This document shows positions 10,099 to 18,994 of a stretch of DNA of 32,963 nucleotides, in pieces (positions within the stretch are counted from its first letter, which is position 1; every line of letters begins with the position of its first letter). Origin of the DNA: Deltaproteobacteria bacterium (GTDB lineage Bacteria; Desulfobacterota; Dissulfuribacteria; Dissulfuribacterales; Dissulfuribacteraceae). The notes beneath the pieces are model-generated. The model did no database searches, was not told where the DNA came from, and worked only from the letters and a program-made list of their open reading frames with translations. The DNA lies in assembly GCA_026994795.1 (NCBI GenBank), contig JALWQB010000001.1:1-32963 (forward strand), given 5' to 3'. A program made the translations under genes and the position numbers.

Positions 10099-10314
10099 TT
10101 ATTCCTCTTTTATCACTATCTGATATTTATCCTTTTCACCCTTCTTTTTAAGGTCAATTCCATCTTTTGCCTTATCAGCGCCTTTTCTTTGATTGTCTCC
10201 ACGGACATCGCATGTTGGCGATGCTCAGGAAGGCACGCCAAGGCGTGGCAATACCCACCTGTTTAAGGCATACCAGCCAATGATTAAAAGGAGCAGTAAA
10301 ATTATGTCTGACAT
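10099..10314 (-). CDS. candidate small membrane-anchored selenoprotein (in-frame UGA read as Sec)
   Basis: A 71-residue frame from ATG 10314 to TAA 10101-10099, interrupted only by TGA at 10227-10225 (codon 30). An AAGAAGG site lies 9 bases before the ATG. Residues 4-16 are one membrane helix (I-I-L-L-L-L-L-I-I-G-W-Y-A). Then comes P-R-L-G-V-P-S-U-A-S-P-T-C, a U-x4-C arrangement that could be a redox pair, followed by a strongly charged Lys/Asp-rich tail ending K-Y-Q-I-V-I-K-E-E. The bases after the TGA fold into the hairpin described at 10191-10209, as required for bacterial Sec insertion. I recall similar short membrane selenoproteins in anaerobic bacteria but cannot verify this. The alternative is a pseudogene with a nonsense mutation, giving a 29-residue peptide. 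It lies just outside the element. Confidence 0.6.
10191..10209 (-). promoter_or_regulatory. candidate bacterial SECIS hairpin
   Basis: Minus-strand GATGTC pairs with GACAATC (one bulged A), closing a 6-base loop CGTGGA. The loop's second base is G (10202), 23 bases after the TGA. As I recall them, bacterial SECIS rules ask for a G among the first two loop bases at roughly 16-37 bases from the UGA. A competing 7-bp hairpin (GCATCGC with GCGATGT, 10224-10205) starts directly after the TGA. Confidence 0.55.
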
Positions 10315-10396
10315 CTTTTTAAGCCTTCTTAACATTAATTTAGTGGATCGATTCCTAAACAGTATTTCTATCGACCGGAACTAAAATTTTCAGCAG

Positions 10397-10424
10397 GTAG
10401 GGGCACGTTGCAACGTGCCCCTAC
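10397..10424. repeat. 28-base perfect palindrome (dispersed REP-like repeat)
   Basis: GTAGGGGCACGTTG followed directly by its reverse complement. It resembles the short GTAGGGGC...GCCCCTAC palindromes scattered through many bacterial chromosomes. It lies between the selenoprotein candidate and the element and probably marks chromosomal sequence. Confidence 0.6.
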
Positions 10425-10586: not shown

Positions 10587-10787
10587 TTACTGTTGCGTTC
10601 GTTTTGCGTTAAGCCACTTGTCAACATCATCAAGTATCCATCCTACACGATTCAAGGACAATTTCAATGGTTTGGGGAACATATCCTTACGCATCAAACG
10701 ATAGATTGTCGCACGTGATAAGTCAACATACCTTGAAACTTCTTTGATATTCAAAATTCTTGGCATAATTTGGCTATTAGAGCGCAT
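10587..10787 (-). CDS. AlpA-like helix-turn-helix regulator / excisionase
   Basis: 66 residues forming one winged-helix DNA-binding domain of the AlpA/MerR-like excisionase group: I-L-N-I-K-E-V-S-R-Y-V-D-L-S-R-A-T-I-Y-R-L-M, then F-P-K-P-L-K-L and G-W-I-L-D-D-V-D-K-W. In prophages and ICEs such proteins steer excision or activate integrase genes. GGGGG lies 4 bases before ATG 10787; an internal ATG at 10766 also keeps the whole domain. It follows the primase-helicase gene with a 77-base gap in the same direction and may be the last gene of that operon. Confidence 0.8.
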   Translation of the reverse strand: MRSNSQIMPRILNIKEVSRYVDLSRATIYRLMRKDMFPKPLKLSLNRVGWILDDVDKWLNAKRTQQ

Positions 10788-10864
10788 AATTCCCCCTTTC
10801 CTTAATTTAAGGTTTGTTTTTTTAAAAAATTAACAAAAAAATAGGCAAAATGAGATTATACTGG

Positions 10865-13800
10865 CTAATTTGGCGGTCGTGGGTGTATCGGAACTTGCAT
10901 TTGGGCGTCTCCTTGTTGAAGTAATAATGGTAATTGTTCATAAGTAGGAGTAGGAGCAGTTGGCTCTTTAACATTAGAGGTGGAGCAAGTAGCCAACCAT
11001 GCCCCTCTCCATAGAGGTAATAAAATATTATTAGCCATAAAAGTTTTTAAATACTTGGGGATTCTGTTGTTAAATTCGGGATTGCTGTCCGTATTCGAAT
11101 CAATTAGATACGATTTGTATAAATTTATCATAGTTTGAATGTCAAAATTTACTGAAGAATTAAGAGAAGAAACAAAGTTGAGGTAAGCATTAGAGAGCTT
11201 TTGAGAGGCTTTAGGATTTGACAAAGGATTGTGAAGGCATAAGTCGGGAGCCCCCACAACATTGAGTATTTCATCATTATAGTACTCTGCAATTAATATT
11301 AAACGAGCATTTGGATTGTTAAAAAGTTGTCTGTGCCTGCCAATTGTTTGGATCATTTGAGCATGAGGCATCCATTGGCGATACGCTTCTTCTATCTCAT
11401 CATCATCATTAAATAATGTTCTCGCGGTTAATATGTATGCTTTTGGCTGTGCAATTGGCGCTCCTATGATCACCATTGTGTCTATTTTGTCGTAATTGTT
11501 ACTACCTCTTGTGTTTGGTGAGTAATGATAAGTAATATTTATATTATTGGTTTTACATTCAAGCCATCGAATCATATTCATCTTGCCGTCCACATTTGGC
11601 GCAATCCAGGCAGTATTGCCTATCGTTAAACGCTGTGCCATTGATATGGCGTAATCAAGTTGCCGATATTTACTGTTATCGTTGTTTAAAGCCTTTTTGA
11701 TGTGTTTGCGTGTTGCGATATCCTTCAAGTTGATTATTTTCCCTTCTCTCTTTGGCCATACTTTCAGTTCTTCAGGGTCATCAAGCCAATCAAAGACATA
11801 TTTGAGGGCCTCAACGCAAGCTGTGGCGTCCATTAGTATGGTCTGAGAGGGATTTCCCAATTTATTCCTGCTGAGGCGTCTCTTTACGGTGAAAAAAATT
11901 GATTTACTATCGATATGAATCAATAATTTGTTTTGCAACAAAGCAAATAGCAGGTTAAATGCGTCATAATTTATGCCAATCTCGTAACATACATCTTTAA
12001 TTTTGTTATTGATTAATACATATGTTGCGTCTTTCTCAAGGTTGTGTTCCTTTGCAATAAAAATGTCCCATAGTAACGCCTTGATGTCGTCAACTTTTGT
12101 TTTTAGTTTTGGGTTTACAATTGCTAACTCTCCAATTGCCTCAAGCAATCCTTTCAAGCATTCTTTCGCATCCACCTGTAATTGTTGATAATCAGTCCAT
12201 GAGTTATCTATTGTTAGCAATTCTTTTTTAGAGAGCAATGGTTTTATGTTGTGGTGTAAGCATATTATTGAATCTAGGAAATTATTGATTGCCGTATCAA
12301 TGGTATATTCATTCAAAAATGAATATATTGTTTTAAGTTTATGCCAGCTAAATTCGTACACTAATCTCTGAACAAAGATATCAACTTCATCGATAATCAA
12401 ATTCCCGCCTTGGTATTCTTCGTATATTTCAGGCTGTAAATGCTTCAGTATGGTAAATAAATATCGAGCTATGTCATGAGTGCAGAAAATTATGCTATCA
12501 GTCCGTATTTTTGAATATTGTTGAAATGCTTGACATACGCCACTATATTTATCTTTTATGGCAGCACATTTGCTGTAGTTACAAGTATGTGTATCGGCAT
12601 GTGGGTGATGAGCGCATTTGCCGCAGACCACATTTTCTGGCAAGTTAAGTTCGATCGCCTTTTGCAACAACTCAGGATGATAACAATATTTTGATTTTGG
12701 CTCTATTTTCACCATCTTATTGGCCAGTTCAGGGTGTAACAGTATAGCTTGATGATACTGTTCACTGACTAAATCATTTGTAGGAGCGCAAATAACAGTT
12801 AGCTTATTTTTTGCGTGTAATACGTCCAGGTTATAGAGTATCGATGTTGTCTTTCCTGTGCCCGTCCCGGCCATCACAATGGCATCTCTGCCCTCATTAA
12901 TAATGCTATCTATGGTTTGCTTTGTGAGCACTCTTGTTTGAGAAAGAGGCATTATATGATGAGTCTGATTGATTTTGATTTTAGGTGTTAAATTATCGCT
13001 CATGATATCGTTTATTTCATGTTCACTAAGCCCCATCGCCTTTAAAATATCTTGATTGATGACAGTAGTTTGATTCGTAGTGCATGAAGTCGAAAAACAT
13101 TTGCATTTTACAAATCGTCCGCTTGTCCAAATCGTAAAATTTTGTTTTTTATGCGAATGTGCACGATGACCACATATAGGGCACTTTTTCCACTGATAGC
13201 CTTTGATTTTCCCTTTAATTCTCACAATTTTGGGACTTCTATATTTTTTGACAAGGACATCAATTAGTTTAACAATTTGAGGTTTATTACTGGTTTTGAG
13301 ACGATATAGGTTCGGTTTAAAAATGGACTTAAATGTAGTTGATATAACTTTACCTTTCTCTCTTTTTTGTTGTTTTTCTTTTTCTTGTTTCAAAAAATTA
13401 GCGAAATCTTGAGGGGGGTCAAGCGTAAGATTATTCAACAAATCCTCTATATAGAATGCCCATATAGAGGAATGAAATGGCCTGCGGCACAGATCTAGAT
13501 AATTGCTATAGTTCAAAATTGAGGTAAGCTCTTCAGGAGAAACAGGTTGGGCTGTCATATTGTCACGGTTTCGAATTAGAGCAATTGGGGTTTGTGGCGA
13601 TATATGATCGATAAATAACAAGACAGAGACATAATATTCTTTCTTCAGTCTATCATATCTTATTAGTTCCTTCAAGTTGCTTTTTATTTTCTTTTTTTTC
13701 TTTTTATTTTTTATGTTTTGTTTAATAATTGAAATGGCATGACCAAGATCTGTATGATCATATTTGTCAATAATAATATTGGCCATACTACTAGAGATGA

Positions 13801-14245
13801 TTATTTTTTCATCTTTTAAAGTTTCAAAAAGGAAATTATTGTAATTATCAATATTATTGTGATTAATGATAAAAAAAGGTATGAACTTAAAGCCTTTTTG
13901 TCCTGATGCGATAATCTGCCCATTATTGCTGAAAAAAGAGATATTTGCCAATTTTTGGCTTAATTGAGGTATTAATACATTTAATACCTTAGTATTATTT
14001 GGGACATCGAAATCCAGTAATGGCCATAAGTCCCCACCCTCAAGAGCAGAGGCGATATATATGCCATCATCCTCTTTATTGCCCCATTTATTGGCCGCGA
14101 GGTCATGGACCATCCTTGGGATATCTTCAAAATGAAGAGTGTGGATGAGGCGTTCTGGGGGTTGACCTTTAGCCGCGGGGTTATCGGGATGATAGGATTG
14201 AAGACTAAAATTAATCTTGACTTTTAAGCTGTTGATGTTATTCAT
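10865..14245 (-). CDS. primase-like / zinc-finger / SF2 helicase fusion protein
   Basis: 1126 residues, probably for replication of the element. Near residues 75-79 L-L-D-F-D matches the D-x-D metal motif of archaeo-eukaryotic primases, and S-G-Q-K-G-F-K near 113 sits where the family has S-G-x-x-G-x-H, so the usual histidine is missing. A zinc cluster C-P-I-C-G-H ... C-K-C-F-S-T-S-C lies near 354-385. The second half is an SF2 helicase: Walker A G-T-G-T-G-K-T near 460, D-E-V-D near 617, a D-A-T motif, and Q-T-I-G-R-H-R near 967. A second cysteine set (C-G-K-C-A-H-H-P-H-A-D-T-H-T-C) near 540 may bind iron-sulfur or zinc, as in XPD-like helicases. Start ATG 14245 has AGGAG 7 bases upstream; the longer frame to 14359 overlaps the preceding gene. 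Only 20 bases separate it from that gene, so both share the promoter near 14780. Confidence 0.7.
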   Translation of the reverse strand: MNNINSLKVKINFSLQSYHPDNPAAKGQPPERLIHTLHFEDIPRMVHDLAANKWGNKEDDGIYIASALEGGDLWPLLDFDVPNNTKVLNVLIPQLSQKLANISFFSNNGQIIASGQKGFKFIPFFIINHNNIDNYNNFLFETLKDEKIIISSSMANIIIDKYDHTDLGHAISIIKQNIKNKKKKKKIKSNLKELIRYDRLKKEYYVSVLLFIDHISPQTPIALIRNRDNMTAQPVSPEELTSILNYSNYLDLCRRPFHSSIWAFYIEDLLNNLTLDPPQDFANFLKQEKEKQQKREKGKVISTTFKSIFKPNLYRLKTSNKPQIVKLIDVLVKKYRSPKIVRIKGKIKGYQWKKCPICGHRAHSHKKQNFTIWTSGRFVKCKCFSTSCTTNQTTVINQDILKAMGLSEHEINDIMSDNLTPKIKINQTHHIMPLSQTRVLTKQTIDSIINEGRDAIVMAGTGTGKTTSILYNLDVLHAKNKLTVICAPTNDLVSEQYHQAILLHPELANKMVKIEPKSKYCYHPELLQKAIELNLPENVVCGKCAHHPHADTHTCNYSKCAAIKDKYSGVCQAFQQYSKIRTDSIIFCTHDIARYLFTILKHLQPEIYEEYQGGNLIIDEVDIFVQRLVYEFSWHKLKTIYSFLNEYTIDTAINNFLDSIICLHHNIKPLLSKKELLTIDNSWTDYQQLQVDAKECLKGLLEAIGELAIVNPKLKTKVDDIKALLWDIFIAKEHNLEKDATYVLINNKIKDVCYEIGINYDAFNLLFALLQNKLLIHIDSKSIFFTVKRRLSRNKLGNPSQTILMDATACVEALKYVFDWLDDPEELKVWPKREGKIINLKDIATRKHIKKALNNDNSKYRQLDYAISMAQRLTIGNTAWIAPNVDGKMNMIRWLECKTNNINITYHYSPNTRGSNNYDKIDTMVIIGAPIAQPKAYILTARTLFNDDDEIEEAYRQWMPHAQMIQTIGRHRQLFNNPNARLILIAEYYNDEILNVVGAPDLCLHNPLSNPKASQKLSNAYLNFVSSLNSSVNFDIQTMINLYKSYLIDSNTDSNPEFNNRIPKYLKTFMANNILLPLWRGAWLATCSTSNVKEPTAPTPTYEQLPLLLQQGDAQMQVPIHPRPPN

Positions 14246-14265
14246 TGCAATACTCCTATATATTT

Positions 14266-14733
14266 TCAGTTTGTCCATAGGCTCTGCTGGCGCAGGGCCT
14301 TTGTTTGTGTGAGACAGTTCGCCTTGATTTGCCCCTGATAAGGTAATAATTCCCGCCACTTACGTTCTGTTTGCCTGTTATATCCTCTGACAGTGCGTTT
14401 TTTGGTGGGGGTGGGGGCAGAGGTAGGAGGGTTAGGGGGTACTGTCATGTTGATATCGAGTTCTGTTGCCCTTGTGATGGGATCGGGGCTTATATGGCCA
14501 TTTTGCCACATGTTTTTCTCTAATCTTTTCAGACGGTTGCGAAGGTAGATTTCTGTAACCCGCTCCCCTCTGGCTATTTTTGCTATAATATCAATACTTT
14601 CTGCCCAAATGTAACTGTTTTCCAGTATCTTGCCCTTTTCTCGCAAGCCATTCTCAAAATAAAAAGTTAATAATTCCAAGCACTTGTCCATACTTGCGCC
14701 TTCCGAAATAGTACTAATGATCCAAGATTCCAT
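14266..14733 (-). CDS. unknown small protein, first gene of the primase-helicase operon
   Basis: 155 residues, mostly helical in the first two thirds (L-E-L-L-T-F-Y-F-E-N-G-L; R-V-T-E-I-Y-L-R-N-R-L-K-R-L-E-K), then a Pro/Thr-rich linker and a basic tail with R-G-Y-N-R-Q-T-E-R-K-W-R. No family recognised. ATG 14733 is preceded by GGAGG at 9 bases and lies about 26 bases after a strong operator-covered promoter. Position suggests a replication accessory or regulatory role (inference only). Confidence 0.6.
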   Translation of the reverse strand: MESWIISTISEGASMDKCLELLTFYFENGLREKGKILENSYIWAESIDIIAKIARGERVTEIYLRNRLKRLEKNMWQNGHISPDPITRATELDINMTVPPNPPTSAPTPTKKRTVRGYNRQTERKWRELLPYQGQIKANCLTQTKALRQQSLWTN

Positions 14734-14753
14734 TTTATTTTGCCTCCAACAAT

Positions 14754-14781
14754 AATATGGTAATAATATTATTACCATATT
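14754..14781. promoter_or_regulatory. 28-base perfect palindrome operator over a promoter
   Basis: A perfect palindrome centred on GGTAATAATATTATTACC. It covers the -10 region, part of the spacer and the predicted start of the minus-strand promoter whose TTGACA lies at 14794-14789. Its 18-base core recurs exactly at 15384-15401 before the next gene. A repressor bound here would block RNA polymerase; the divergent XRE-family protein at 15691 is the obvious candidate. Confidence 0.7.
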
Positions 14782-14794
14782 GTTCTTTTGTCAA
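14766..14794 (-). promoter_or_regulatory. sigma70-type promoter of the primase-helicase operon
   Basis: On the minus strand TTGACA (14794-14789), 17-base spacer, TAATAT (14771-14766), about 33 bases before the ATG. Consensus -35 and optimal spacing indicate a strong promoter that is probably kept off by the overlapping palindrome. Confidence 0.7.
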
Positions 14795-14838
14795 GTCTTT
14801 TTTTGATGAAACGCCCCTAAAATTATACTTAATTAATG

Positions 14839-14905
14839 TTTGGACCATCTTTAATTATATTTTATTAATAAAATAAGATAGTTGGTTAATTAAAGACGGT
14901 CCAAA
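14839..14905. repeat. 19-bp inverted repeat with GACGGTCC-type ends
   Basis: The arm at 14839-14857 (TTTGGACCATCTTTAATTA) faces its reverse complement at 14887-14905 with one mismatch, around a 29-base AT-rich centre. A 14-base piece of the right arm, TAAAGACGGTCCAA, recurs in direct orientation at 21055-21068. It could terminate the 14935 gene or be a recombination or binding site; its function is not known. Confidence 0.45.
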
Positions 14906-14934
14906 TATAACCCTGATAAAATGCGGCGGATTAA

Positions 14935-15342
14935 TTAGCTCTTCTCTTGTCTTGTTGATAATTCTTCAATCAATAAATGTGTTGGTATCTTTTTAAGATA
15001 TGCTTTTTGTATTTTTTCTTTTTCTCCAAGCAATTCTGCTATGTCATCCCTCAATTCCAATGCCCACATCCGCTGAAATTTTTCACCTGTCCAATCTATC
15101 ACACATACACAGTCACCATTTTCCTTAACTTGATACACACAGACGCCAGGTCTTCTAGCACGATATTCATCAAAACAAATAAATATGTCGCCAGGCTCCA
15201 TGTCATACCATCCCCCTCGATCAAGAAATGAACCAAGATAACACCTTGCTGTGCTTTCACCATATTTAATGCCTTCAACCTTTTTTGCCCAACTTTTGTT
15301 TCTTGTGGGCGCAAATCTTCCTGGTACTTGTACTGCTATCAT
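14935..15342 (-). CDS. unknown small protein under the same palindromic operator
   Basis: 135 residues, soluble, no family recognised. The N-terminal part is rich in Arg/Gly/Trp (Y-L-G-S-F-L-D-R-G-G-W-Y-D), the middle predicts beta strands (G-D-I-F-I-C-F-D-E-Y-R; V-C-V-Y-Q-V-K-E-N-G-D-C-V-C-V-I-D-W), the end is helical. Clear start: AGGAGG lies 8 bases before ATG 15342. Its promoter carries the same 18-base palindrome as the primase operon, so the two are likely co-regulated. Confidence 0.6.
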   Translation of the reverse strand: MIAVQVPGRFAPTRNKSWAKKVEGIKYGESTARCYLGSFLDRGGWYDMEPGDIFICFDEYRARRPGVCVYQVKENGDCVCVIDWTGEKFQRMWALELRDDIAELLGEKEKIQKAYLKKIPTHLLIEELSTRQEKS

Positions 15343-15383
15343 TTTATTTATCCTCCTTTTATTTTGTTTATTAGTAACAATAG

Positions 15384-15422
15384 GGTAATAATATTATTAC
15401 CATATTGTTCTTTTTTTGTCAA
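15384..15422 (-). promoter_or_regulatory. second copy of the operator-promoter
   Basis: The 18-base palindrome GGTAATAATATTATTACC is at 15384-15401 and TTGACA at 15422-15417 on the minus strand. Sequence between is the same as in the first copy except for three extra A residues, which stretch the spacer from 17 to 20 bases. That should make this promoter much weaker, or leave it dependent on another factor. Confidence 0.6.
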
Positions 15423-15636
15423 GTTTTTTTATTATGAAAAAGATACGTATTTTGAGGTAACTATTCAGGGGTTTAACTAATTGATATTACATGTAATTTT
15501 TTTAAAAGTTTTTTTGCAATATCTGAATTACTATAAATGTAATCTATTAAAATTATTAACTTTTTAAATTTTAGGATTAAATATCTAAATTTTTCATTTT
15601 TTGTTATATTAATAGAATATATATGTCAATTATCTG

Positions 15637-15665
15637 TTGACACCCCGTCTGATGAAAGATAAATA
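15637..15665 (+). promoter_or_regulatory. promoter of the XRE-family regulator
   Basis: TTGACA (15637-15642), 17-base spacer, TAAATA (15660-15665), 25 bases before the ATG. No copy of the GGTAATAATATTATTACC operator lies here. Confidence 0.6.
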
Positions 15666-15690
15666 AAGTGAAGGAGGTAATATAAGGAGA

Positions 15691-16515
15691 ATGAAAATAA
15701 TAACTGCAAATGATAAAAAAATATATGGCGAACGCCTTAAAATAATGATTCAAGCCGCTGGAATTTCGCAAAAAGATATTGCTCGCGTCCTGAATATAAC
15801 TCCCAGAGCTGTCACTTCATGGGTCCAAGGCAGGACATTACCTCATTACGCTACTCTTTCTTTTTTAAATCAACATTTTGGATTTAATATTTTATTTTTT
15901 ATCAATGGAGATGGGCCGCCTCTTTTGTCTTTACGTCGTCCAAAAAAAAAAAAAATTACTAAAGAAAAAGAAACAACACTTTTTAGTGAACACCACAAAT
16001 TAATTTTATTATTGGAAAACTATTGCCATCCATGGAAAATTATCGACAGAGCATACAAAAATTATCTCACTGACCCTAATGTTGGTATTCTTGATAAAGT
16101 TCGAAGCGCAGGATTTGAGGGACATGCTGGTGCTGTGTTAGCAAAGCGGTATTGGTTCGCCGCTAATCCGTGGTGGGAAGAAGCAATATCATATTTATGG
16201 TCAGTTTATTTAGGTGTTCTCCAAAATAAAGAAATTAATGCTTTTGCTGTAGCCTATTTGGCGGTGATCCTTTATTCTCCTACTGATCCCGACGAAATAA
16301 ATAAAGCAGTAAATCTTCTTGTCCAGAGGCTGTCCGCAAAAATTAATAACAAACGAACAGAAGGAAGAGAAATTAAGGTTAAAATGCCTAAAGCCTGTAT
16401 GTCCTACTTAAAGGAAGCGGTTGAAAGCCTTGTTCAGTTGGTAGAAATGGATATTTTACCCTCATTCTGTTTTTATCATAATAAAGTCTATTGGTCAACC
16501 TGCCCAAAATGCTAA
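15691..16515 (+). CDS. XRE-family helix-turn-helix regulator with C-terminal helical domain
   Basis: 274 residues. Residues 12-65 are an XRE/lambda-repressor-type DNA-binding domain (I-S-Q-K-D-I-A-R-V-L-N-I-T-P-R-A-V-T-S-W-V at 25-45). A linker with R-R-P-K-K-K-K-I-T-K is encoded by a run of 14 A (15942-15955). The remaining 170 residues are helical with many aromatic residues and end in Y-W-S-T-C-P-K-C; I do not recognise this part, and it has no LexA-type Ser/Lys protease motif. GGAGG and AAGGAG sites precede the ATG. It is divergent from two operator-controlled genes and is the natural candidate to bind their palindromes. Confidence 0.75.
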   Translation: MKIITANDKKIYGERLKIMIQAAGISQKDIARVLNITPRAVTSWVQGRTLPHYATLSFLNQHFGFNILFFINGDGPPLLSLRRPKKKKITKEKETTLFSEHHKLILLLENYCHPWKIIDRAYKNYLTDPNVGILDKVRSAGFEGHAGAVLAKRYWFAANPWWEEAISYLWSVYLGVLQNKEINAFAVAYLAVILYSPTDPDEINKAVNLLVQRLSAKINNKRTEGREIKVKMPKACMSYLKEAVESLVQLVEMDILPSFCFYHNKVYWSTCPKC

Positions 16516-16537
16516 TAATAGTAATTTATACTTCAAC

Positions 16538-16561
16538 AGCAGGCCAAAAGACCGGCCTGCT
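16538..16561 (+). terminator. hairpin after the XRE regulator
   Basis: AGCAGGCC and GGCCTGCT form a perfect 8-bp stem around AAAAGACC. No T-run follows directly, so it is a weak candidate as an intrinsic terminator. A diverged copy lies in inverted orientation at 17047-17070. Confidence 0.5.
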
Positions 16562-16609
16562 ATCACAATTAATGTCCTGATTGTCGTTTTTATTCATAAG
16601 GAGATTAAG

Positions 16610-16969
16610 CTACTTAAAAAGCAGTTTAACCAGCTGGACAAACTGAGGATTAAACAGCGTCATTGCTGCTATGACAATGCCAATCAGCCAGTTTAATTTT
16701 GTATTTAAGTATTTAATTTCAGCTTTTAACTCAGCCTCTACTTTTTTTAATTCGCTTTTAACTCCAGCAAGATCAGCCTTTGATGCCAGTTCCTTGCTTA
16801 ATTCATCTTTTATCTCAGCCTTGAGTATAGGTCTTTGCTCCTGACATTTATTTTCAAGGGCAGCAATGCCGATGTTCAGGGCCTCAATAACAGGCTTTGC
16901 CTGTTCTTGCCCTAAAACACTCTCAATGGCCTTTGTCGCTTTAAAATATGCCTGCATGGTAGTTTCCAT
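16610..16969 (-). CDS. coiled-coil protein with C-terminal membrane helix (DUF1640-like)
   Basis: 119 residues: a helical N-terminus, a heptad-rich coiled coil over about residues 45-90 (E-L-S-K-E-L-A-S-K-A-D-L-A-G-V-K-S-E-L-K-K-V-E), and one membrane helix near the end (W-L-I-G-I-V-I-A-A-M-T-L-F). This is the layout of bacterial DUF1640 proteins, whose role is not known. No strong ribosome-binding site marks ATG 16969; ATG 16957 is an alternative. It is bounded by two related hairpins in inverted orientation and looks like a self-contained insertion between the regulator and the coupling protein. Confidence 0.55.
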   Translation of the reverse strand: METTMQAYFKATKAIESVLGQEQAKPVIEALNIGIAALENKCQEQRPILKAEIKDELSKELASKADLAGVKSELKKVEAELKAEIKYLNTKLNWLIGIVIAAMTLFNPQFVQLVKLLFK

Positions 16970-17046
16970 GCCTTATATTATATGTATTAAACGCCATCTT
17001 TTCAATAATTAAATATCCTTTCTTTGATCGCCGATTATACTTTGCC

Positions 17047-17070
17047 AGCAGGTCGGTCTTTCGGCCCGCC
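17047..17070. repeat. inverted diverged copy of the 16538 hairpin
   Basis: Read on the minus strand it matches 20 of 24 bases of 16538-16561. Its own stem is imperfect. It follows the stop of the coupling protein gene by 10 bases and may end that transcript. Confidence 0.45.
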
Positions 17071-17080
17071 TAAACCGCAA

Positions 17081-18994
17081 TTAAAGTTCTATCTCTTCTT
17101 CTTTTTCCTTTTTATTATCCTCTATATATTCCTCTTTTTCTTCTTGTTTCTCTTTTTGTTCTATATTATTGTTGTTTTCCTCTAAAGGTATTTCTTTTTC
17201 CTCATTTTTTCTTTCAATTTTTATAAACCCAGGGTGTTTTTCTGATAGTTGTAAATACTTCCATTTTACTTCTGCCGGGTCAAAATTGGCAATTTTAATA
17301 ATAGAAGTCAAATCAGGTAGTTGCGATATCTGTGTCGGCAATAGGACATATTTTTTGGCGACAGATCTGTTTGCGTTAACTCTATCATAATCATCAGCCG
17401 CTGTCATACTATGGCCTACCTGGCCCCCCTCTTCTATCTCTGCCTCACCTATAATTTTTGCAACAATTTCAGTATCTTGAGGATTATTGATGCGGAAAAA
17501 GAGGCGCGTATTCATATCAAGGATTGTCCCCGCGCCCTCATTCCCATACTTCTCTTTAATTGCTTGGACTGTTTGAGAACCGATAATCATACTCACTCCC
17601 TTACTCCGGCCCTCCCGGATGAGGCGCATGATTGTCTGTATTCGAGGTAAAGCAGGCAATTCATCGATAATCACAAAACGGCGGCGCATAAGGTCATCTG
17701 GCCACGTTAAGGCTTCAAAAGTGAGGATATTAATTATCATTGAATAATAATTACTTAAAAGTGCCTCATATGCTGGGGGCAAGGTCAAAAAGGCGACTCC
17801 CGGACCATCTTTTTTCCACCATCCTCTCAAGCTGAAATCGTTATTTTTTGTTTGAATCAAACTAAAAATGTGACAAAATTGCGCTAAAGTTGACATTATC
17901 CCCCCTATTTGACCTTCAGCCCCCGTTTTATGGATATGGGCGATTCCGGTTTCAGTCGCTGTGGGTGGATGATCTTGTAAGGTATCGCGTAGTTTTGTCG
18001 GTCCAATGGCGATGAGCTTTACAATCTCCGCAGGGGTTATATCTTTTTTATTTAATGTTTTCAGATATTTAATCATCACTGACAGCACATCGGCACTTGC
18101 CTCGCGAAAATACTTCTCTGTCCCATCACCACCACCGGCCGGCGGGGGGATAATCGATGCTGCCACATCTCTTACTTCAAGGTCTAAATCGTTAATATCA
18201 TTAAGGAAATTCCACCCGCAATATCTTTCGTCAAGGGGATTGAGAATAAGGTCTATATCAGGACTATAAAATTTCTGGCAATAGTCCCCTTTGATATCAA
18301 ATAACACTATTTTTTCGCCTCTGTCTCTCAATTGCTTTAAAATATAGTTGATTGCATTAGTTTTCCCTGTTCCCACTGCTCCAAGGATGAGAATGTGCTG
18401 AGTTTCGATGGCGGGAGGGAACGAAATTGGTCCAAGCTGCAGAGGGCAGGTAATAGGGGCCTTTTTCTTTTTTATTGATGGATGTTTGTTAATTACCCGG
18501 TTGAGCTTTTTAGCTGCAATGAGCCGCGTTCCGCGAATGTGTTTGCTTTTATGGAGATCGCGAAAGGCTTTTTTACGGAGAACCACGGTCCCGATAACAG
18601 TCAAAAATGCAAAAATTACAATACTATATACCGCTACAAAGGCAATACTGTCAGCACTATCTCTTCTTATTATCGGCACCGCCCACGTACATATATCTGC
18701 GACTCTATATTGTTTTTCTGATTTTTCACCATTTAAATTATAAATTTTAAGTGTTATTAGTTGCTCCGGATAAATATATTTTATAAGGCAGGAATAAGCA
18801 ATTTTTACTATATTTTTTCTTACATTTACATTAATTTTATCAGTTTTAAAAGCAATAAATATAATTATCGCCATTGCGATCGAAGTCGCCAAAAATGACA
18901 AGAGCATTTTGCCCACCATGGCAGTTTTGTGCTTTACTATCTCGAATCCTTCCCATGCGTGAGGATCTCTATGGCTGTCATGGGGTGTCTTCAT
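17081..18994 (-). CDS. VirD4/TraD-type type IV coupling protein
   Basis: A 637-residue hexameric ATPase of the inner membrane that hands the relaxase-DNA complex to the conjugation channel. Two membrane helices (about residues 27-50 and 117-140) bracket a small periplasmic loop. The ATPase domain follows with Walker A G-A-V-G-T-G-K-T-N near 203-212 and Walker B F-V-I-I-D-E-L-P-A-L near 440-449, then the R-L-I-R-E-G-R-S-K-G-V-S-M-I-I-G-S-Q-T motif typical of TraD/TrwB. The C-terminal 60 residues are a Glu/Lys-rich acidic tail; TraD-type proteins use the C-terminus to contact relaxosome partners. GGAGG lies 7 bases before the ATG. It is divergent from a small membrane gene across a 46-base gap. 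Confidence 0.92.
   Translation of the reverse strand: MKTPHDSHRDPHAWEGFEIVKHKTAMVGKMLLSFLATSIAMAIIIFIAFKTDKINVNVRKNIVKIAYSCLIKYIYPEQLITLKIYNLNGEKSEKQYRVADICTWAVPIIRRDSADSIAFVAVYSIVIFAFLTVIGTVVLRKKAFRDLHKSKHIRGTRLIAAKKLNRVINKHPSIKKKKAPITCPLQLGPISFPPAIETQHILILGAVGTGKTNAINYILKQLRDRGEKIVLFDIKGDYCQKFYSPDIDLILNPLDERYCGWNFLNDINDLDLEVRDVAASIIPPPAGGGDGTEKYFREASADVLSVMIKYLKTLNKKDITPAEIVKLIAIGPTKLRDTLQDHPPTATETGIAHIHKTGAEGQIGGIMSTLAQFCHIFSLIQTKNNDFSLRGWWKKDGPGVAFLTLPPAYEALLSNYYSMIINILTFEALTWPDDLMRRRFVIIDELPALPRIQTIMRLIREGRSKGVSMIIGSQTVQAIKEKYGNEGAGTILDMNTRLFFRINNPQDTEIVAKIIGEAEIEEGGQVGHSMTAADDYDRVNANRSVAKKYVLLPTQISQLPDLTSIIKIANFDPAEVKWKYLQLSEKHPGFIKIERKNEEKEIPLEENNNNIEQKEKQEEKEEYIEDNKKEKEEEIEL

Follow-up and report, generated by a model that had tools for sequence, protein, structure and literature searches.

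SELENOK and SELENOS are small eukaryotic membrane selenoproteins, with one helix and a selenocysteine (Sec) that lies in a flexible cytosolic tail, near the C-terminus. The KCU-star / DUF466 selenoprotein carries its Sec at the extreme C-terminus. For prokaryotes, a 2026 census counts 119 selenoprotein families and states that nearly all selenoproteins have homologues with cysteine (Cys) and that the leading discovery methods depend on these (PMC13188914). It also gives the rule for the bacterial SECIS hairpin (bSECIS): a loop of 3–9 nt whose first or second base is G, a stem of 4–16 bp, a distance of 16–37 nt from the UGA, and an energy of at most -7.5 kcal/mol (PMC13188914).

The window (the whole stretch of DNA analyzed, 32,963 nucleotides) contains a frame of 71 codons on the minus strand, from 10314 to 10099, in which a TGA at codon 30 is the only break before the closing TAA. 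An earlier note on this DNA had proposed such a frame, broken by TGA alone, without giving the strand; translation with TGA read as Sec (U) agrees with this and places the frame on the minus strand. The predicted product is MSDIILLLLLIIGWYALNRWVLPRLGVPSU-ASPTC-DVRGDNQRKGADKAKDGIDLKKKGEKDKYQIVIKEE, followed by the TAA. The features of the locus are the following:

10099..10314, minus strand: complete selenoprotein candidate frame with Sec at codon 30 (translation; homologues all with TGA; profile match of 68.9 bits, E 7.1e-19)
10324..10330, minus strand: Shine-Dalgarno-like AAGAAGG, 9 bases 5' of the ATG (sequence)
10240..10311, minus strand: single membrane helix, codons 2–25, with the NRWVLPRLG signature at its end (AlphaFold2; alignment A1 of 34 members)
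10225..10227, minus strand: TGA, codon 30, inferred to be read as selenocysteine (TGA at the same alignment position in 89/89 members)
10210..10212, minus strand: Cys, codon 35, at +5 from Sec, probable resolving thiol (Cys at +5 in 70/89; Cys 4–10 residues past a Sec in 89/89)
10102..10209, minus strand: charged tail, predicted to be disordered, codons 36–71 (translation, AlphaFold2, family comparison)
10191..10209, minus strand: hairpin at the bSECIS position, loop CGUGGA with G second, 23 bases past the TGA (top match of covariance model R1; weak alone)

The other parts that had been ascribed to the gene in the earlier note were recovered as well. The AAGAAGG at 10330-10324 (minus strand) fits the claimed ribosome-binding site, and Shine-Dalgarno-like motifs, defined by a loose pattern, precede 81 of the 89 family members collected. 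A longer in-frame start is available at 10335; homologues begin at the shorter ATG (10314). The claimed membrane helix is predicted by AlphaFold2 at residues 2–25, where the first two ten-residue blocks have mean pLDDT values of 97 and 94, and the model as a whole consists of one confident helix and a disordered tail (mean pLDDT 69.8). The U-x4-C motif corresponds to the TGA at codon 30 and the Cys at codon 35, and codons 36–71 following this Cys do encode a charged and predicted disordered tail, which is longer than that of the relatives (median family length 53 aa; predicted full-length products of relatives have 47–66 residues). Just upstream of the selenogene, at 10397-10424, lies a perfect 28-base palindrome, GTAGGGGCACGTTG/CAACGTGCCCCTAC, possibly an element of a repeat family. 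A search with Rfam near the gene returned chance matches only.

A search with the single sequence identified homologues in 51 of 99 related genomes, all with TGA. The profile derived from alignment A1 (34 members) matched 169 of the 395 genomes sampled from the phylum, a sample that takes in genomes publicly named Deltaproteobacteria (L039, L040), and 35 of the 46 genomes of the order. Some 20 of the phylum matches, intermediate in strength, were not inspected individually. Family residue counts are based on 89 collected members, read from DNA, and exclude two weak matches from the first search (L095, L096). Among these members the Sec position is invariant (89/89), and it is surrounded by Pro at -7 (87/89), Gly at -4 (87/89), Thr or Ser at -1 (82/89) and Cys at +5 (70/89); a Cys is found 4–10 residues past a Sec in every one of the 89. 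Some distant members (L174, L179, L181, L182, and L192) lack the Cys partner, which indicates that the Sec-Cys pair is not obligatory.

Every full-length match that was inspected has TGA at the same position, as do all of 23 further, mostly weak matches that were read. The earlier note had expected either TGA or Cys codons at codon 30 of homologues, and took an unrelated residue there as grounds for rejection. The first part of this expectation is met, as the homologues have TGA and no unrelated residue; the Cys variants were not encountered in the phylum. No Cys at the Sec position was present among the matches from the phylum, order or weak-hit searches (the profile was not applied to other phyla). 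The bias by codon position continues past the TGA, with 82, 69, and 155 differences at the first, second and third positions, respectively (a third-position excess). Lack of conservation downstream of the TGA would have refuted the proposal, and the frame is conserved there in homologues, above all at Cys +5 (70/89). Several apparent matches were rejected. For four from Latescibacterota and Gemmatimonadota (L041-L044), which are solute-binding proteins outside the cell, the resemblance is confined to the helix, and a match on a Methylobacterium plasmid (52% over 21 residues, E 6) is due to chance. Two weak phylum matches that seemed free of a stop (L183, L191) end just short of the Sec position, and their full frames contain the TGA.

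Most homologues can form a hairpin at the SECIS position past the TGA, and it covaries strongly. Twenty-eight of them could be aligned without gaps, with a hairpin of 8 pairs and a 3-base loop; 89.3% of the cells pair and 59 cells have changed on both sides. The covariation score is 0.688, compared to 0.245 for shuffled and at most 0.231 for slid alignments. As these 28 were picked for a common loop register, the percentage paired is biased upward, and the covariation less so. Across the 89 genes, this region folds more strongly than its synonymous-codon shuffles (mean z -1.93), with 48 genes at p ≤ 0.05 and 20 at p ≤ 0.005. Of 70 loops, 68 have a G as first or second base, against 54% expected, and all bSECIS constraints, including the energy, are met by 62 of the 89 members.

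In the window itself, the hairpin can be folded as GAUGUC-CGUGGA-GAC(A)AUC, from bases 16 to 34 past the TGA and with a 6-base loop. The earlier note held that it is as bacterial SECIS elements require. Its geometry conforms, with a G as the second loop base and 23 bases from the TGA, but its energy misses the limit of -7.5 kcal/mol. Folded alone, it reaches -2.6 to -3.5 kcal/mol, and 61 of 200 shuffled sequences fold equally well (p 0.235 with synonymous-codon shuffles). By the strict rule it is among the weakest of the family, at -1.8 kcal/mol. Covariance model R1, built from homologues without the window, nonetheless ranks this site first in the window at 17.3 bits (E 0.0093), with the next at 11.5 bits. 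With the downstream frame conserved and the site the top match of R1, it is more than a chance hairpin. A rival hairpin, GCAUCGC/GCGAUGU at 10208-10227, lies directly past the TGA and overlaps the one at the SECIS position. It is the stronger of the two (-9.6 kcal/mol for the region) and competes with the latter. A weak SECIS together with a competing hairpin means that the copy in the window may be poorly decoded or decaying.

Nine loci of one genus encode two Sec residues (L053, L062, L063, L064, L069, L071, L072, L077, and L078). In these, the first Sec is no longer followed by its Cys, and a further motif, (I/V/N)PTU-DG-x-SC or similar, has arisen close to the C-terminus. The second TGA has a strong SECIS hairpin of its own downstream (-6.8 to -13.5 kcal/mol).

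The host genome encodes the machinery for decoding. Checking for selA, selB, selC, and selD had been suggested in the earlier note, and all four are present: selA (E 4.4e-173), selB (E 2.7e-107), a tRNA-Sec with anticodon TCA on contig C35 (G000:C35, 72.7 bits), and selD (E 9e-110), which itself contains an in-frame TGA. No relative with the gene lacks both a full match to selB and a strong tRNA-Sec. Five genomes positive for the family lack a full selB match; as a strong tRNA-Sec is present in all five, this probably reflects a limit of the assembly or the search. As the Sec machinery is present in nearly all relatives, its co-occurrence with the family carries no information in this sample. 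Five relatives (L203, L204, L205, L206, and L208) contain a second, divergent selB beside a tRNA-Sec-like gene with a GCA (Cys) anticodon. These tRNA-Sec-like genes score 56–60 bits to RF01852, and their anticodon is not UCA. A similar pair with the anticodon UCA is found in L207. The pairs with GCA resemble the reported selC*/selB* systems, and in these five relatives Sec might be inserted at UGC or UGU codons.

Taken together, we regard it as very likely that the family is a selenoprotein family. The sequences show that the frame is conserved, that the TGA is universal, that the hairpin covaries and that the host has all the genes for decoding; Sec insertion itself is inferred, and no expression or selenium data are available. 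That the copy in the window is itself decoded is likely, with somewhat less certainty. In the proposed mechanism, SelB and tRNA-Sec would decode the UGA at codon 30, aided by the hairpin approximately 20 bases downstream. The product would comprise a short acidic N-terminus, one helix, and a conserved N-R-W-x-L-P-K/R-x-G-x-x-T/S-Sec motif at the membrane surface, followed by the Cys five residues later and a flexible tail rich in lysine. Ahead of the helix, 94% of members have a charge of zero or below, and all (100%) are positively charged over the 13 residues before the Sec. By the positive-inside rule, the positive charge after the helix implies that the Sec and the tail are cytoplasmic. 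The inferred topology is therefore probably N-out/C-in, with the Sec at the cytoplasmic face of the membrane, which would be the inner membrane.

A function in thiol or selenol redox chemistry at the membrane is inferred as well, and we favor it with modest confidence. The Sec would react first and become oxidized by a substrate at the membrane, which may be a peroxide, a disulfide in a protein or a partner in electron transfer; of these, peroxides or protein disulfides seem the most likely. The nearby Cys may then resolve the oxidized Sec as a selenenylsulfide, and thioredoxin or a similar donor could re-reduce it. The signs of a link with thioredoxin are indirect only, namely an upstream thioredoxin gene at three loci (L087, L163, and L164) and the Cys near the Sec. 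As a whole, the reading of a SelB/tRNA-Sec-decoded, membrane-anchored mini redox selenoprotein appears well supported to us.

The gene neighborhood bears on the alternatives. Neighbor counts refer to genes immediately upstream on the same strand; the names MEMO1, gltX, and FmdB were read from sequences, and FmdB is backed by Pfam Zn_ribbon_8. Redox genes are common as neighbors and vary by lineage, and no partner is constant. An Fe-S protein of ferredoxin-like type is encoded upstream together with a cytochrome c7 at about 16 loci, and NrfD at 8 loci, several of which have a MerR regulator. An FmdB zinc ribbon precedes the gene at 6 loci, thioredoxin lies 23–63 bases upstream at the three loci named above, and MEMO1-gltX are neighbors elsewhere. 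The selenoprotein could be an accessory component of an electron-transfer complex in the membrane, of the NrfD / Fe-S / cytochrome c7 type, in which the Sec serves as metal ligand or electron relay and not in thioredoxin-linked thiol redox. The position of the gene directly after the ferredoxin-like and cytochrome c7 genes in one family of the order, and after NrfD and the MerR regulator in sister families, is in line with this. However, most other lineages differ (FmdB, thioredoxin, MEMO1-gltX or none of these), which makes an obligate complex unlikely, and the NrfD-MerR pair of the window's genome is on another contig, without the gene. Moreover, cytochrome c7 is periplasmic, whereas the Sec is predicted to be on the cytoplasmic side. 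We consider this alternative unlikely, albeit the most viable of those examined.

A slightly less probable alternative accepts the family and concerns only the window's copy, which would have been relocated, be decaying and no longer be efficiently decoded. None of the redox neighbors of the relatives (Fe-S/cytochrome c7, NrfD, FmdB or thioredoxin) accompanies it. One flank consists of genes for an AlpA regulator, a helicase, and a coupling protein of the TrwB type; the other, of genes for an unassigned 163-residue protein and an AMP-binding enzyme. The three genes of the first flank fall within 10587-18994, where the DEAD helicase match belongs to a protein of 1164 residues and the coupling protein is of the TrwB/TraD kind; they suggest that a conjugative element adjoins the selenogene. 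As the NrfD-MerR pair of this genome is located on contig C225 (L198, G000:C225) without the selenogene, the latter has probably been relocated. The lost neighbors, the position beside conjugation and AlpA genes, the weak SECIS and the longer tail are all compatible with decay. Against it, the GVPSUASPTC motif and the helix are intact, as are the start site and the reading frame through the TAA; this is the sole copy in the genome, and the SECIS model still finds its hairpin.

It is also conceivable, but doubtful, that the Sec acts as a ligand or sensor for soft metals (mercury, arsenic or copper) at the membrane. MerR-type and ArsR-like regulators are found upstream at some loci, and metal binding is suspected for several of the selenoproteins catalogued so far (PMC13188914). 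No metal-transport or resistance operon consistently adjoins the gene, however, and no more than one Sec and, usually, one Cys is conserved. Finally, that the TGA is an ordinary stop, ending a 29-residue membrane peptide and leaving the remainder untranslated, is highly improbable despite the weak hairpin of the window and the existence of many small single-helix membrane proteins, since residues past the TGA are conserved across the phylum, the hairpin covaries, and TAA or TAG replaces TGA in none of the 89 members, where a true stop would drift among the three.

The selenoprotein family preferred here appears to be uncatalogued. Scans of 34 members against Pfam, NCBIfam, and PDB gave no match beyond noise: the best E-values are 0.0021 for NCBIfam (single members to unrelated families), 0.033 for Pfam, and 0.046 for PDB (to ribosomal eS26). 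In the census, its supplementary tables aside, none of the 119 families has this architecture or a U-x4-C motif (PMC13188914). An unnamed presence in those tables, or in the groundwater MAG study using deep-Sep that is cited as reference 66 of the census (PMC13188914), is not excluded. Gene finders overlook the family because its Sec codon is normally read as a stop, and in our own explanation it escaped discovery because it is Sec-only and approximately 50 residues long. On balance, we think it probable that this is a widespread Sec-only family of single-helix membrane proteins without Cys versions, missed because discovery methods rely largely on Cys homologues and on proteins of annotatable length, and with the Sec motif duplicated together with its SECIS in one genus.

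Should this be confirmed, about 40% of the genomes sampled from a phylum where nearly all sampled relatives carry tRNA-Sec would encode a selenoprotein that neither the reference libraries nor the census consulted here includes. The selenoproteomes of sulfate-reducer-like bacteria would then be undercounted for very small proteins. A Sec family without a Cys form is rare and would, likewise on confirmation, make it possible to test directly which abilities of selenium sulfur lacks. The family would also add a great many natural SECIS elements that covary, two-SECIS genes included.

Compared to known systems, the family resembles KCU-star / DUF466 (NF033934) as a very small bacterial selenoprotein of unknown function, but the latter has a CU motif, and the family has no NCBIfam match. 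With SELENOK and SELENOS it has in common one membrane helix and a Sec in a flexible cytosolic tail, which for the family is a prediction. In those proteins the Sec is near the C-terminus, whereas here it is close to the end of the helix, and the family is of bacterial origin with a bacterial SECIS. From the catalogued bacterial selenoproteins it differs in that none of 34 members matches an NCBIfam selenoprotein model above noise, and in that no Cys homologues were found, which nearly all selenoproteins have according to the census (PMC13188914). With these same catalogued selenoproteins it shares the in-frame UGA, the downstream hairpin at the bSECIS position, the Sec-Cys pair and a host equipped with the Sec machinery.
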